The position numbers were made by a program, and so were the translations under genes. A stretch of DNA of 64,000 bases from Vibrio cholerae (GTDB lineage: Bacteria > Actinomycetota > Actinomycetes > Actinomycetales > Micrococcaceae), in the NCBI GenBank assembly GCA_009728235.1, contig WNZI01000016.1, positions 1 to 64,000 of the forward strand. The letters are read 5' to 3'. The notes under the pieces are model-generated. The model ran no database searches, had not been told where the DNA came from, and saw only the letters and a program-made list of their open reading frames with translations. This document shows positions 30,900-56,753 of the stretch, one piece after another (within the stretch, counting starts at the first letter, position 1; each line of letters starts with the position of its first letter).

Positions 30900-30915
30900 T
30901 CGAATACCTGTTCGG
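30900..30915. promoter_or_regulatory. LexA (SOS) box upstream of recA
   Basis: TCGAATACCTGTTCGG fits the actinobacterial SOS consensus TCGAAC-N4-GTTCGA with two differences. It lies just upstream of a TAGAAT hexamer and about 140 bases before recA. Confidence 0.75.
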
Positions 30916-31053: not shown

Positions 31054-32097
31054 ATGGCCGCTCCAGACCGCGAGAAAGCCCTAGAAGCTGCTCTCGCCCA
31101 GATCGACAAGCAGTACGGTAAGGGATCCGTCATGCGTCTCGGTGACGAGACCCGCGCGCCGATCGAAACCATCTCGACGAGTTCGATCGCCCTGGATGCG
31201 GCGCTCGGCATCGGAGGGCTTCCGCGGGGACGCGTCGTGGAGATCTACGGTCCGGAGTCCTCCGGTAAGACGACGGTCGCCCTGCACGCCGTGGCGAGCG
31301 CCCAGCGGAACGGAGGCATCGCCGCCTTCATCGACGCCGAGCACGCCCTCGATCCCGAGTACGCCAAGAGGCTGGGCGTGGACACGGACGCCCTCCTGGT
31401 CTCACAGCCCGACACCGGTGAGCAGGCGCTCGAGATCATGGACATGCTGATCGGTTCAGGGTCCATTGACATCGTCGTCATCGACTCGGTCGCCGCGCTC
31501 GTGCCCCGCGCCGAGATCGAGGGCGAGATGGGTGACAGCCACGTCGGCCTCCAGGCCCGGCTGATGAGCCAGGCGCTGCGGAAGATCACCGGTCGGTTGA
31601 GCCAGACCAAGACCACCGCCATCTTCATCAACCAGCTGCGCGAGAAGATCGGTGTCTTCTTCGGAAGCCCGGAGACCACCACGGGTGGTAAGGCACTGAA
31701 GTTCTACGCCTCGGTCAGGATCGACGTGCGCCGCATCGAGACCCTGAAGGAGGGCGTGAACCCGGTGGGCAACCGCACCCGCGCGAAGATCGTGAAGAAC
31801 AAGATGGCTCCGCCTTTCAAGCAGGCCGAGTTCGACATCCTGTACGGCTACGGAATCTCCCGTGAGGGCGGCCTCATCGATGTCGGGGTGGAGAACGGAC
31901 TGGTGAAGAAGTCCGGAGCGTGGTTCACCTACGACGGCGACCAGTTGGGACAGGGCAAGGAGAACGCCCGGAAGTTCCTGATCGATAATCCTGGTCTGGC
32001 CGATGAGCTCGAGCAGAAGATCAGGGTGAAGCTGGGCATCGGTGTCCAGGTCGAGGAGCCCGAAGCTCCGAAGCTCAAGGCCGTCAGCGGCGAGTAG
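31054..32097 (+). CDS. recA: recombinase RecA
   Basis: RecA drives homologous recombination and triggers LexA self-cleavage. 347 residues with Walker A GPESSGKT (66-73), the [12 protein letters not shown] segment, Walker [13 protein letters not shown], the L2 loop around [22 protein letters not shown], and a C-terminal domain ending in an acidic tail. GAGGTGAAG precedes the ATG. A SOS box and -10 lie upstream. recX begins five bases after the stop, and the stop codon itself begins a TAGGCT hexamer. Confidence 0.98.
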
Positions 32098-40870: not shown

Positions 40871-41650
40871 CTAGAGGGCGCGCATCACGGAGACGACTTT
40901 CCCCATGATGCTGGCGTGGTCGCCGAGGATCGGCTCGTAGCGCGTGTTCTGGGGTAGGAGCCAGGTGTGGCCGTCGCGTTGCCGGAACGTCTTGACCGTG
41001 GCCTCGTCGTCGAGCAGGGCCGCGACGATGTCGCCGTTCTGGGCGCTCTGCTGTCGACGGACCACCACCCAGTCGCCGTCGCAGATCGCGGCGTCGACCA
41101 TGGAGTCCCCGGCGACCCTCAGCATGAAGAGGTCGCCGTGGCCGACGAGTTGTCTCGGGAGGGGCATGACGTCCTCGACCACCTGATCGGCGAGGATCGG
41201 GCCGCCGGCCGCGATGCGGCCGACGAGTGGTACAAGGGCGGTGTCGACGGCGACCTGGTGTTCGAAGGTCGCCTTCTGCTCGGCGGAGGACCCCGGCGCA
41301 TCCGGTGACGCGTCGGAGGTCAGCGTCAGCGGCAGCAGCACCTCCATCGCCCGGGGGCGTTTGGGGTCACGCCGCAGGTAACCGAGGCGCTCGAGCTGCG
41401 ACAGCTGGTGGGTCACGCTCGACAGGCTCGCAAGCCCCACCGTGTCGCCGATCTCCCGCATCGATGGCGGATACCCGTTGTCGGCGATCGAGCGTTGGAT
41501 GGTCTCGAGGATCGTCAGCTGTCGCGCGGTGAGGCCCTTCGACACGGAGCGCCCCCTGGGGCGCCCCCGTCCGGCGGGCATGCGCACGACATCAGCCGCG
41601 AGATCGGCGGTGTTCGATTCCTGCCGTGCTGCCGGTGTTGGTTCCGCCAC
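40871..41650 (-). CDS. lexA: LexA repressor
   Basis: LexA represses the SOS genes and cleaves itself when RecA filaments form. 259 residues from GTG ([10 protein letters not shown]), with a ~40-residue actinobacterial head. The winged helix follows ([49 protein letters not shown]). The cleavage site is Ala148-Gly149 in GRIAAGGP, the catalytic Ser183 lies in AGDSMVDAA and Lys220 in EATVKTF. Its promoter carries a SOS box, so it is autoregulated. It converges on dinG. Confidence 0.96.
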
Positions 41651-41810: not shown

Positions 41811-41839
41811 ACGCTAGGACAGTCGGAGGCACTTTTCAA
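41811..41839 (-). promoter_or_regulatory. lexA promoter (-35/-10)
   Basis: On the minus strand TTGAAA (41839-41834) and TAGCGT (41816-41811) are separated by exactly 17 bases. The -35 overlaps the first LexA box, as expected for repression. Confidence 0.65.
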
Positions 41840-41851
41840 ACATATGTTCGA
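41836..41851. promoter_or_regulatory. LexA (SOS) box, lexA side
   Basis: TCAAACATATGTTCGA differs from the consensus palindrome TCGAACATATGTTCGA at one position. It overlaps the lexA -35. Confidence 0.85.
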
Positions 41852-41903: not shown

Positions 41904-41919
41904 TAGAACGTGTGTTCTA
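41904..41919. promoter_or_regulatory. LexA (SOS) box, LysM side
   Basis: TAGAACGTGTGTTCTA is a perfect palindrome in both 6-base arms, with the GAAC-N4-GTTC core. It lies 49-64 bases before the LysM gene start. Confidence 0.85.
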
Positions 41920-44358: not shown

Positions 44359-44993
44359 GCACCCGCAGGGTCACCGTGCTCGATTACGGGTCGGGGAACG
44401 TCCGGTCCGTGGTGAGGGCGCTCGAACACGTCGGTGCCGAGGTCGTGCTCAGCGCTGAACCCGACGACGTCCTCAACGCCGACGGTCTGCTGGTGCCCGG
44501 CGTCGGAGCGTTCGCGGCCGTGATGAAAGGGTTGAAGGACGTCGACGCGCTGCGCATGATCGGTCGCCGGGTCGCCGGCGGTCGCCCTGTGCTCGGCATC
44601 TGCGTCGGCCTGCAGATCCTGTTCGACGAAGGGGTGGAGCACGGGGTGCGGACGCCGGGCATGGGGGAGTGGCCCGGGACCGTCGAGCGGTTGAAGGCCG
44701 ACGTCGTCCCCCACATGGGTTGGAACACCGTAGCTGCGCCCGCGGACACCGTCCTGTTCGACGGGATCGCCGACGAGCGTTTCTACTTCGTGCACTCCTA
44801 CGGCGTGCAGGACTGGACCTTCGATGTCACGCAGCCCGCGATGAAGCCACCGCAGGTCACCTGGTCCGACCACGGCGGCCGGTTCATCGCCGCCGTCGAG
44901 AACGGACCGCTCAGCGCCACCCAGTTCCACCCGGAGAAGTCCGGGGACGCCGGGGCGCAGCTCCTGAGGAACTGGACCGAGGGCCTCCGATGA
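44355..44993 (+). CDS. hisH: imidazole glycerol phosphate synthase, glutamine amidotransferase subunit
   Basis: HisH supplies ammonia from glutamine to HisF. 212 residues with [27 protein letters not shown], the nucleophile Cys in [28 protein letters not shown], and the His/Glu pair in [10 protein letters not shown]. It overlaps hisB by four bases. HisF is not in the window. Confidence 0.95.
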
Positions 44994-53912: not shown

Positions 53913-54401
53913 GTGACGCTTTCCGAACCCCGCCGGCCCCTGCAGATCGTCGGGGCGGCAGTCGTCGACTCCCTCGCTCACCCCACGCGACTCCTCGTGG
54001 CACGGAGGACGGCCCCGCCGGCATTCGCAGGATTGTGGGAGTTCCCGGGCGGCAAGGTCGAACCTGGAGAGACATGTGAGGACGCGCTGCGGCGCGAGCT
54101 GAAGGAGGAGCTGGGGATACAGGCGATCCTCGGCGCCGAGATCCCCGGACCCGCTGCGACGGGATGGCCGCTGAACGAGCGGGCGGCGATGCGCGTCTGG
54201 TTCGCCGAGGTGTCGGCGGGAGAGGCGGAGCCCCTGCAGGACCACGATCAGCTCCTCTGGCTGCCGCTCCACCCCGGCGACGACGTGGATGCCCTGCCCT
54301 GGATCCCGGCGGACCGGCCGATCCTCACCGCACTGCGAGCAGCGCCGACCATGCGCTCGCGTGGACTCCGGGCAGGACGCCGGGACGGGCCGATCAACTA
54401 G
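53913..54401 (+). CDS. nudix hydrolase, MutT-like
   Basis: 162 residues from GTG. The nudix box reads [24 protein letters not shown] (Gx5Ex7REUXEEXGU), preceded by the MutT-like [23 protein letters not shown] segment. MutT proteins hydrolyse oxidised nucleotides such as 8-oxo-dGTP; other nucleotide substrates are possible. The gene converges on the radical SAM gene with 19 bases between them. Confidence 0.9.
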
Positions 54402-54420: not shown

Positions 54421-55455
54421 CTATCCGCTCCGGAGCCCTACCTGCGGGCGGCGATGCGGGATCGTGCTGCTCCGCGGGCGAGAGGTTCCGGAAGAACCCA
54501 GCCCCGCCGCGAGGCCATGCGTCTTCCGGGCGACCCTGATCCTGCCGGTGAGCCATTCCCGATACTCCTTCGACGCATAGCTCCCGCCCCGGTAGAGCCC
54601 TTCGTACTTCGGGACCAGATGCGGGTGGTGAGCTGCAAGCCACTGCATGAACCACTCCCGTGAGCCGGGCCGGAGGTGCAGTGGGCCCGCGGTCACCCCG
54701 GTTGCCCCCGCCGCTGCCAGTGCTCCGAACAACCGGTCGAGCGAGTCGTCGTCGTCCGTGAGCCAGGGCAGGATGGGCATCGCCATGACCCCGCAGGGCA
54801 GCCCCGCCTCGCGCAGACGGGTGATCAGGGCGAGCCGCGCTCTGGGCGCCGGCGTCCCTGGTTCGATCGCTTCAGCGAGCGCGGGATCGACGAGCGCGAG
54901 CGAGATTCCCATGCCGACGTTCACGGACTGCGCGGCCGCCTTCAGGACGGGGATGTCACGCGCGAGGAGCGTCCCCTTGGTGAGTATGGAGAAGGGCGTG
55001 CCGGAGTCCGCCAGCGCCGTGATGATCCCGGGCATCAGTGCATACCTGCCCTCGGCTCGCTGGTACGGGTCGGTGTTGGTACCGAGCGCAACGTGCTCGT
55101 GGCTCCAGGAGGGACGGGTGAGCTCTCGCCGCAGCACCTCCCCGGCGTTGATCTTGACCACCAGTTGAGCGTCGAAATCGAGCCCGGTGTCGAGGTTGAG
55201 GTAGCTGTGCGTCTTCCGGGCGAAGCAGTACACGCAGGCATGCGAGCAGCCACGGTAGGGGTTGATGGTCCAGGAGAAGGGCATCGACGAGGTCGGCGGG
55301 ACCTTGTTCAGCACGGACTTCGCGGTGACCTCGTGGAACGTGATCCCGGCGAACTCGGGCGTCGTGACGGTCCGCACCAGCCCGGCGAGGGGCAGGAGGG
55401 CGGGCTCGACGGCGCCCGGGTCACCGTCACTGATCTTCTGACCTTCCCATCGCAT
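54421..55455 (-). CDS. Rv2578c-family radical SAM protein
   Basis: 344 residues from the ATG at 55455 (MRWEGQKISDGD). It shows AGITFHEVTAKSVLNKVP, TINPYRGCSHACVYCFARKTH with the SAM-cluster motif CSHACVYC, LGTNTDPYQRAEGRYALM, SILTKGTLLARDI, IEPGTPAPRARL and LHLRPGSREWFMQWLA. This is the actinobacterial Rv2578c family, related to spore photoproduct lyase-like (SplB) enzymes. The substrate is not known to me. A near-perfect LexA box lies directly upstream, so it may belong to the DNA-damage response. An earlier in-frame ATG (55473) would put that box inside the coding region. Confidence 0.9.
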   Translation of the reverse strand: MRWEGQKISDGDPGAVEPALLPLAGLVRTVTTPEFAGITFHEVTAKSVLNKVPPTSSMPFSWTINPYRGCSHACVYCFARKTHSYLNLDTGLDFDAQLVVKINAGEVLRRELTRPSWSHEHVALGTNTDPYQRAEGRYALMPGIITALADSGTPFSILTKGTLLARDIPVLKAAAQSVNVGMGISLALVDPALAEAIEPGTPAPRARLALITRLREAGLPCGVMAMPILPWLTDDDDSLDRLFGALAAAGATGVTAGPLHLRPGSREWFMQWLAAHHPHLVPKYEGLYRGGSYASKEYREWLTGRIRVARKTHGLAAGLGSSGTSRPRSSTIPHRRPQVGLRSG

Positions 55456-55463
55456 ACCATTAT

Positions 55464-55479
55464 TAGAACACATCTTCTA
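55464..55479. promoter_or_regulatory. SOS-like box before the radical SAM gene
   Basis: TAGAACACATCTTCTA has the same arms as the LysM-side LexA box (TAGAAC-N4-GTTCTA) except for one base (C for G at 55474). It starts nine bases before the chosen start codon of the radical SAM gene and lies 34 bases from the pcp -10 on the other side. Confidence 0.55.
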
Positions 55480-55512
55480 ATATTCCCCGAGGATCGACGG
55501 CGGGGATGCGCC

Positions 55513-55518
55513 TAGGCT
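55513..55518 (+). promoter_or_regulatory. -10 of a leaderless promoter for pcp
   Basis: TAGGCT, six bases, then the ATG at 55525. Confidence 0.5.
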
Positions 55519-55524
55519 GGACGC

Positions 55525-56163
55525 ATGATCCTGCTGACCGGCTTCGAACCCTTCGCCGGGGAATCCACCAATCCTTCCTGGCATGCCGCGCAGCGCGCGG
55601 CGGAACGCCTCACCGATCAGGGCCACGCGGCTGTCGCCGTCGAACTGCCCTGTGCCTTCCACCGCAGTATCGACGTCCTGCGCGAAGCCCTCGAGGACTA
55701 TTCGCCCGTCCTCGTGCTCTGCGTGGGCCAGGCCGGCGGGCGGGAGCGGATCTCCATCGAGCGGGTCGCCATCAATGTCGATGATGCTCGCATCCCGGAC
55801 AACGACGGCCAGCGCCCGATCGACGAACCGGTGGTGGCGGGAGGCCCGTCGGCCTACTTCTCGACCCTGCCCATCAAGGCCTGTCGTGAGGCGGTGGCCC
55901 GGCTGGGCGTCCCCGTCGAGGTGTCACAGACCGCCGGCACATACGTGTGCAACCACGTCTTCTACGCGCTCATGCATCAGCTCGCGCGTCGGGATGACAT
56001 CCGGGGCGGCTTCGTCCACGTCCCGTACTCCTCCGAGCAGGGACAGGCCCATCGCGCACCGGGACTGGACGTGGACGCCATGGCATCGGCGCTGGTCACG
56101 ATCGCGACGACCGCAGTGGCCACCGTGTCCGATGCACGGATCGCTGCAGGGGCCGAGCACTGA
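55525..56163 (+). CDS. pcp: pyroglutamyl-peptidase I
   Basis: A cysteine peptidase (C15) that removes N-terminal pyroglutamate. 212 residues, starting MILLTGFEPFAGESTNPSW. The catalytic triad is visible: Glu in GGRERISIERVAIN, Cys in TAGTYVCNHVFY and His in GGFVHVPYSSEQ. The start lacks a ribosome-binding site but has a -10 at leaderless spacing. Confidence 0.94.
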   Translation: MILLTGFEPFAGESTNPSWHAAQRAAERLTDQGHAAVAVELPCAFHRSIDVLREALEDYSPVLVLCVGQAGGRERISIERVAINVDDARIPDNDGQRPIDEPVVAGGPSAYFSTLPIKACREAVARLGVPVEVSQTAGTYVCNHVFYALMHQLARRDDIRGGFVHVPYSSEQGQAHRAPGLDVDAMASALVTIATTAVATVSDARIAAGAEH

Positions 56164-56204: not shown

Positions 56205-56669
56205 CTACGGGCGGCGTCCGAGCCCGGTCGGGATCACGGCGCGGAGCGTCTGCGCTACGGACCGCAGCGGCTGCTCGCGATAGCCGCCGTCCGCCAGCCC
56301 GGCTCCGCGTTCGAAGACGTTGCGCGACGCCGGATCGCCGGTCCGCAGGAGGGAGTAGCCGCTTGCCACCAGATAGGCAGGGAGGAACGGCAGCCCGCAG
56401 CAGGCGGCATACTGCCGGGCGTGGCGCGCCTCGTGGTCGAGGAGGCGGGCGAATCCTGCGGGGGAGTCCCGCGGGACGGATCCACGCAACAGCACGACGC
56501 TTCCCACGGTGAACGCCCTGGCCCTCGGTAGGCGACGCCGGTAGCCCTCCGCCACCAGGATGCCGTGGGGCCCTGCCGACACGCGGCACCCGGACAGGGC
56601 GGCCACGGCGAGGCCGCAGGGCGTGGACAGGTTGATCCAGTTGAGGAACGGTACGAGCCGGGGACGCAT
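56205..56669 (-). CDS. hypothetical protein with HExxH motif
   Basis: 154 residues from the ATG at 56669 (MRPRLVPFLNWINLSTPCGLAV). The centre reads FARLLDHEARHARQYA, an HExxH zinc-peptidase-like motif, followed by a weakly hydrophobic stretch (FLPAYLVASGYSLL). I do not recognise the family. A third metal ligand is not certain, so activity is open. The ATG has TACGAT six bases upstream on the minus strand. It converges on pcp. Confidence 0.7.
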   Translation of the reverse strand: MRPRLVPFLNWINLSTPCGLAVAALSGCRVSAGPHGILVAEGYRRRLPRARAFTVGSVVLLRGSVPRDSPAGFARLLDHEARHARQYAACCGLPFLPAYLVASGYSLLRTGDPASRNVFERGAGLADGGYREQPLRSVAQTLRAVIPTGLGRRP

Positions 56670-56675
56670 GCGGAC

Positions 56676-56681
56676 ATCGTA
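56676..56681 (-). promoter_or_regulatory. -10 of a leaderless promoter for the HExxH gene
   Basis: Minus strand TACGAT, six bases, then the ATG at 56669-56667. Confidence 0.5.
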
Positions 56682-56753
56682 CGGCCAGGGGGTGGACGGC
56701 GACCGGTCCGGGCGCGGTCGGAGCGCGGATCGCCCCGTGCCCACGGGGCCGGG

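Follow-up and report, generated by a model that had tools for sequence, protein, structure and literature searches.

The 64,000-nucleotide stretch analysed here (the window; positions 1 to 64,000 of contig WNZI01000016.1, assembly GCA_009728235.1, placed in the Micrococcaceae by GTDB) contains a gene for a radical S-adenosylmethionine (SAM) enzyme, flanked by a convergent nudix hydrolase gene and by a divergent gene for pyroglutamyl-peptidase I (pcp). A palindrome resembling the binding site of LexA, the proposed repressor of the SOS response, overlaps the radical SAM promoter (Table 1). The earlier note on this DNA, which was made from the sequence alone, had assigned the gene to the Rv2578c type. 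This assignment is borne out by a full-length match to the NCBIfam family NF038135, at 518 bits against a cut-off of 430, with residues 1–315 lying on positions 1–316 of the 317 in the profile. The nearest other named family, besides the intein-bearing form, is the PA0069 family (NF033668), of which the window protein is not a member (217 bits, under the cut-off of 360). The open reading frame list places the start of the gene at ATG 55473, inside the palindrome; the start kept in relatives is ATG 55455, which opens the sequence MRW, lies 10 bases from the palindrome core and is invariant in the 40 rows of alignment A2. This alignment and a smaller one of 24 rows, A1, both include the window protein.

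Table 1. Features of the radical SAM locus and of the lexA and recA loci used as yardsticks (positions in the window; a point marks a feature given no strand)
Feature	Positions	Strand	Remarks
LexA (SOS) box, 16 bases, TAGAACACATCTTCTA	55464-55479	.	candidate operator
LexA box core GAAC-ACAT-CTTC	55466-55477		1 mismatch to GAAC-N4-GTTC
Longer inverted repeat around the box, TATTAGAA-N6-TTCTAATA	55461-55482	.	perfect 8-base arms, direct reading
Probable -10 element TCTAAT	55462-55467	-	overlaps the box; 6 bases to the start codon
Rv2578c-family radical SAM protein (NF038135), 344 amino acids	54421-55455	-	CxxxCxxC motif C70/C74/C77
Pyroglutamyl-peptidase I (pcp)	55525-56163	+	divergent neighbour
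Nudix hydrolase	53913-54401	+	convergent neighbour
179-amino-acid protein	56205-56744	-	weak eCIS_core match
lexA, proposed repressor	40877-41539	-	extent of hidden Markov model match
LexA box, lexA/LysM intergenic region, TCAAACATATGTTCGA	41836-41851	.	yardstick
Second LexA box, LysM side, TAGAACGTGTGTTCTA	41904-41919	.	yardstick
LexA box of recA, TCGAATACCTGTTCGG	30900-30915	.	itself 1 mismatch from the core
recA match	31066-32025	+	

Read in the direction of the radical SAM gene, the box is TAGAAGATGTGTTCTA, with an exact GTTC half and with GAAG for GAAC in the other half. The earlier note had located it correctly and had described it as near-perfect, as overlapping the promoter of the gene and as sharing both arms, except for one base, with the box beside the LysM gene. 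The last statement is true of the 6-base arms, which differ at one base, and over the full 16 bases there are two mismatches; the LysM-side box is the sole other match in the window at three mismatches or fewer, where 0.03 are expected. Taken alone, the loose core GAAC-N4-GTTC carries little weight when one mismatch is allowed, as it separates poorly from chance: it occurs 31 times in the window against 21.4 expected, and 2 of 100 shuffles reach 31. A 16-base model was trained on the recA and lexA boxes of relatives in the genus, the window's own genome being left out and the patterns choosing the training boxes having been written after those boxes had been seen. It gives the radical SAM box a score of 20.6, the second highest among all window positions, and 26.9 and 19.4 to the two lexA boxes and 19.5 to the recA box; in 60 Markov-1 sequences, each of 64 kb, every site scored below 20.6.

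LexA boxes with one mismatch are nothing unusual in this genus, because the recA boxes (TCGAAT-N4-GTTCG) carry one in 30 of 30 loci, as do many boxes of the lexA region. Within the 600 bases upstream of the lexA match, the core is exact in 15 of 30 genus loci, has one mismatch at best in 14 and is absent from one, and GAAG half-sites are present in the LysM-side boxes of five relatives. For comparison, passages of PMC9380542 give the box of Streptomyces venezuelae as tCGAAC-N4-GNNCGa. The site in the window therefore has what characterizes an actinobacterial LexA box: a palindromic core within one mismatch, a score like those of the lexA and recA boxes of the same lineage, a position on the target promoter and conservation in relatives. 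Elsewhere in the window's genome, exact cores (90 sites per strand, many of them presumably coding) were set aside, and a stricter box pattern gave 7 forward and 7 reverse matches at 11 distinct places, the lexA/LysM box included. Two other matches to this pattern have exact cores about 50 bases upstream of a gene. One, TCGAACATACGTTCTA (G000:C60:16538-16553), precedes ruvA; the other, TCGAACATGTGTTCTA (G000:C2:36472-36487), precedes a small DUF6504-like gene, the match being weak (E 0.00025, 21.7 bits, under the cut-off of 24.2), with a PAS-ANTAR gene divergent.

Conservation of the box, the first check proposed in the earlier note, was found at each level of relationship. The family cut-off was passed by 33 of 38 genomes of the genus sample, from which 34 loci were taken, one of them (G018) in pieces. 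The core is exact in 15, has one mismatch in 18 and two in one, so that 33 of the 34 lie within one mismatch; G016, where the nearest box has two mismatches and is displaced, was scored as a miss. Loci from other genera of the family (n = 85) have an exact core in 24, one mismatch in 54, two in five and three in one, and one locus without a findable start (G066) is counted as a miss, giving 78 of 85 within one mismatch; the core lies 9–11 bases from the start in 76 of these 78 and at 43 bases in two. In the order (n = 41) the corresponding numbers are 27 exact, 12 with one mismatch and two with two, or 39 of 41, with 38 of the 39 at 9–11 bases and one at 44. Starts were found by a sequence pattern in nine family and two order loci, where the profile match begins later. 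All 26 class loci read (80 genomes of the class being over the cut-off) contain the core within 80 bases, 24 of them exactly and two with one mismatch; in one (L229) the exact core is 68 bases from the start. A set of named loci, the closest of which are Arthrobacter, overlaps the unnamed sets and comprises 74 of 80 loci, six having been left out because the match did not begin at residue 1; here 30 cores are exact, 41 have one mismatch and three have two (71 of 74 within one mismatch).

These frequencies exceed the background, since among 1399 random 60-base windows in the flanks of the named loci the exact core was never found and the one-mismatch core was found 17 times, and in shuffled upstream stretches the latter appears in 1.3–4.3%. 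The phylum sample (30 loci of 72 genomes with a match) has an exact core in 26, one mismatch in two and none in two. It was given little weight, as 260 bases were searched instead of the usual 60, the core of one locus (L204) is 125 bases off, and the exact core of another (L121) lies inside a reading frame (EQLFE) and may be a chance match. Among eight loci that are more distant and score lower, three carry a one-mismatch core upstream and five carry none. The site, its place, its recurrence with the radical SAM gene in most relatives and its likeness to the recA and lexA boxes were computed directly. Separately, a contig titled 'Candidatus Melainabacteria' (L294) contains a gene 58% identical to that of the window together with an exact actinobacterial-type box, and is perhaps a mis-binned actinobacterial contig.

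The promoters of 151 of the 155 genus, family and order loci, those with up to two mismatches at 9–11 bases, a choice that slightly favours the core columns, could be aligned on the core. They show a constant order of elements: TTG[AC], then the palindrome T[CA]GAAC-N4-GTTC[GT]A running into AAT, and the start codon 9–11 bases past the core. TTG[AC] begins at position -13 or -14 of the core in 86 of the 151, and with a 17-base spacer from -13 the -10 element is TC[GT]AAT. The transcript of the radical SAM gene is probably leaderless, because the predicted -10 element ends about six bases before the start codon. The left arm falls in the promoter spacer, where T is found in 96% at position -2, G, A and A in 99, 87 and 99% at positions 0–2 and C in 64% at position 3; the right arm has G, T, T and C in 91, 100, 99 and 99%. 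Both half-sites are exact in 65 promoters, only the right in 71, only the left in 11 and neither in four, and the innermost position of the left half varies most (GAAC 76, GAAT 27, GAAG 17, GAAA 10). The genus g84, probably Streptomyces by our inference, differs in that 32–35 bases mostly separate its palindrome from the start, a GAGGAGG stretch lying in the interval.

From these data, 55464-55479 very probably functions as a LexA operator for the radical SAM gene. Several observations weigh against this reading. The window's own copy is imperfect, with GAAG in one half, and the sequence at its -35 place (55485-55490), TCGGGG, is poor. Seven of the 85 family loci, one of which lacks a start, and two of the 41 order loci fail the one-mismatch rule; in one of these family loci (G053, locus L184) the best core has three mismatches despite the presence of lexA, the right-arm-like TTGTTCTATAATGTTCTAT remaining. 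The relatives are, besides, non-independent samples. Finally, the right arm doubles as the -10 element and is better kept than the left (GTTC exact in 136 of 151 promoters, GAAC in 76), and therefore part of the conservation may be promoter conservation.

Taken to its end, this last point would make the conserved sequence a core promoter only, an extended -10 element TGTTC[GT]AAT of a leaderless gene, with the look of a LexA box as a by-product, and the distance of 9–11 bases to the start in most loci fits such an element. The left arm, however, lies between -35 and -10 and is no promoter element, yet its G, A and A are nearly invariant; the 32–35 bases separating the palindrome from the start in g84 mean that start-codon spacing alone does not explain the conservation; and the same motif stands at lexA and recA. 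We consider a core promoter alone highly improbable. The box could instead serve the divergent pcp gene, which the earlier note had not mentioned, or both genes, as pcp begins 47 bases beyond the opposite end of the core. A neighbour census (tblastn at E 1e-8, covering about 1.5 kb to either side of the radical SAM gene) detected pcp in 27 of the 30 loci from the genus, but in only 5 of 25 from the rest of the family and in none of those from the order (0/23), phylum (0/28) and class (0/26), where most loci keep the box. The distance between the box and the start of the radical SAM gene is, moreover, nearly constant. In the genus, L006, L007 and L025 keep the box with no pcp in the stretch and form a natural control for the divergent neighbour. 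Service to pcp, alone or shared, is thus unlikely, and pcp was rejected as the main target; an effect of LexA on this gene, 47 bases away, is possible. A different palindrome-binding repressor using TTAGAA-N6-TTCTAA would account for the perfect 8-base arms in the window, which omit the innermost C/G of the LexA core. That innermost position is nevertheless the most variable one in relatives, likewise in the recA (GAAT) and five LysM-side (GAAG) boxes, and a scan of four neighbouring proteins revealed no regulator, so that another repressor has hardly any likelihood. We read the box as the operator of the radical SAM gene, because it follows that gene through most loci as the neighbours change.

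The nudix gene does converge on the radical SAM gene, as the earlier note had said, but the partnership in clearing damaged nucleotides that it proposed is unsupported. The census detected it next to the radical SAM gene at all 30 loci from the genus and at 22 of 25 from the rest of the family, and at none from the order (0/23), phylum (0/28) and class (0/26). Its upstream region lacks any core within one mismatch, the nearest cores listed in the window scan being at 44396 and 54727. As a general feature the partnership was rejected, given that among the loci read nudix was found only in the window's family and the box persists beyond it. Beyond pcp, the 179-amino-acid protein of Table 1 has a weak eCIS_core match (E 8.1e-5, 23.2 bits, cut-off 22) and is found in 26 of 30 genus loci.

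The predicted fold of the gene product is closest to that of spore photoproduct lyase (SPL). An AlphaFold2 model obtained from 40 sequences (mean pLDDT 82.1, pTM 0.80) retrieved SPL first in Foldseek (E 1.7e-8, TM 0.52), and VIA-align likewise ranked SPL first (4FHF; Z 19.2, 3.5 Å over 265 residues, 14% identity), followed by lipoyl synthase at Z 15.6. SPL (PDB 4FHC, 4FHE, 4FHF, 4FHG, 4K9R and 4RH0) is thus the best solved fold over nearly the whole protein, and the two share the CxxxCxxC motif, whose C70, C74 and C77 are invariant in the alignments of relatives, and an EPGT stretch. SPL Tyr96 is kept as Tyr76 (40 of 40 rows in A2, 23 of 24 in A1). A search of solved structures with the single protein sequence gave nothing credible, with two hits at E 0.37 and 0.39.

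Two findings set the protein apart from SPL. The alignment-based search of solved structures returned a designed protein (E 0.011) before SPL, which followed with weak similarity (E 0.054–0.16), and the residues of the SPL radical relay differ. According to passages of PMC3742179, this relay consists of the pair Cys140-Tyr98, with Cys140 as hydrogen donor. Tyr98 (Gt numbering), right after the third cluster cysteine, corresponds to Phe78 in the window; Phe is found at this place in 38 of 40 rows of A2 and 23 of 24 of A1, and Tyr in the remaining two and one. At the place expected for Cys140, residues 122–129 (VALGTNTD in the window), which was located by strand order since the alignment is poor there, cysteine occurs in 0 of 24 (A1) and 0 of 40 (A2) rows, and a Gly and a Thr occur in every row. 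The profile alignment to SPL is unreliable between the cluster motif and the EPGT stretch, where two alignments differ, and within the wider interval of residues 112–140, which falls in this part, a cysteine is present in 3 of 24 (A1) and 1 of 40 (A2) rows. A further cysteine, C221, is retained by most of the sequences (37 of 40 in A2, 23 of 24 in A1). Strict SPL activity appears improbable, because Tyr98 is replaced by Phe and no Cys140 counterpart is apparent.

Two further observations concern this protein family. In 22 loci (including L066, L068, L072, L085, L107, L208, L216 and L218) the gene contains a long insertion directly before the third cluster cysteine, between Y76 and C77, which was called intein-like from NF038136 and from its ends, with both junctions recognised in 21 and one in L113. 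The iron-sulfur site of these proteins would form only after splicing; the window's copy has no insertion. In addition, stretches of Acidianus two-tailed virus or Bicaudavirus match residues 62–230 at about 26% identity, three of the four being annotated as radical SAM.

SOS control of SplB-like radical SAM enzymes is already in print, and the gene of the window is a well-supported further instance; the claim in the earlier note that the box adds such an enzyme to the SOS response is therefore not new. Passages of PMC9380542 report experiments on the S. venezuelae radical SAM gene vnz_31145, which shows LexA enrichment in chromatin immunoprecipitation and a 20-fold increase after mitomycin C, and whose product is likened there to enzymes repairing UV thymine cross-links. 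The SOS box printed for it, TCGACCGTTCGCTC at -61, differs in sequence and place from the box before the Rv2578c-type gene in g84, and vnz_31145 may therefore be a paralogue. A computed core LexA regulon of Gram-positive bacteria, drawn from seven species (PMC7739468), lists 'a radical SAM protein', which is possibly of the same family as the Rv2578c type, the passages giving no gene name. Its species include Mycobacterium tuberculosis, Leifsonia xyli and Acidothermus cellulolyticus, and the passages mention neither Arthrobacter nor promoter anatomy. Passages of two other papers describe predicted SOS networks that contain splB (COG1533), one for alpha- and beta-Proteobacteria (PMC3323433) and one for Bacteroidetes (PMC8565304); these resemble the present case in having a SplB-like radical SAM gene under LexA and differ from it in lineage and in their unrelated LexA motifs. 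SplB-like genes also stand with ImuB-C repair genes in other bacteria, as stated in passages of PMC3765255. What is added here is more taxonomic and promoter detail than these passages hold.

The statement in the earlier note that the Mycobacterium homologue had been discussed near DNA-damage genes was not confirmed, as the literature search found no publication joining Rv2578c and LexA by name; Rv2578c alone turned up in two papers. Rv2578c is said to appear in the M. tuberculosis LexA lists of Davis (2002) and Smollett (2012).

From the arrangement of the promoter we infer LexA binding, repression and induction of a leaderless gene. LexA on the box would cover the spacer and the -10 element and keep the gene off; upon DNA damage, RecA on damaged DNA would promote LexA self-cleavage, and the gene would be derepressed together with the other SOS genes, recA and lexA among them. 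The product would then act on damaged DNA, or on damaged nucleotides, by 5'-deoxyadenosyl radical chemistry. We give this explanation as a whole, operator, SOS derepression and lesion-acting product together, a probability of roughly 0.85. For the Rv2578c-type enzyme, a DNA-lesion substrate is proposed because of the SPL-like fold and the SOS control, and it seems somewhat favoured on these grounds. Since Tyr98 is absent and Cys140 not evident, we expect a lesion-processing reaction other than the reversal of spore photoproduct, or one with another hydrogen donor.

Alternatively, LexA might control the gene while its product has no part in DNA repair; the SOS set could, for instance, have recruited a radical SAM enzyme that modifies RNA or peptides. 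The fold is common to many radical SAM enzymes, with lipoyl synthase, pyruvate formate-lyase activase and RlmN ranking after SPL, the Tyr98 of SPL is not kept, and most S. venezuelae LexA targets are without a known repair role in the passages of PMC9380542. SPL is nevertheless clearly first in the fold comparison, and predicted SOS networks with several unrelated LexA motifs contain genes of this enzyme class, which are also associated with ImuB-C genes in the published cases cited above. We consider a product outside DNA repair rather unlikely. The repair role put forward in the earlier note is accordingly plausible, and others have proposed it for the enzyme class in the passages cited. The observation in the note is confirmed, and its interpretation as a whole is partly supported.

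The retention of a LexA box with one gene across genera, families and orders, while the neighbouring genes change, points to a standing role of the Rv2578c-type enzyme in the DNA-damage response. Enzymes of this class have entered SOS regulons several times, and the passages on them assign the lesion by likeness to SPL; the residue comparison argues against a strict likeness. We tentatively suggest that the Rv2578c family might be a widespread SOS-induced radical SAM repair enzyme for a lesion other than spore photoproduct, acting without the Cys140/Tyr98 hydrogen return. A cross-link or a bulky adduct may be named as an example, because mitomycin C induces a Streptomyces radical SAM gene. If true, bacteria would possess a second direct-reversal activity based on radical SAM chemistry, one found in actinobacteria that form no endospores.

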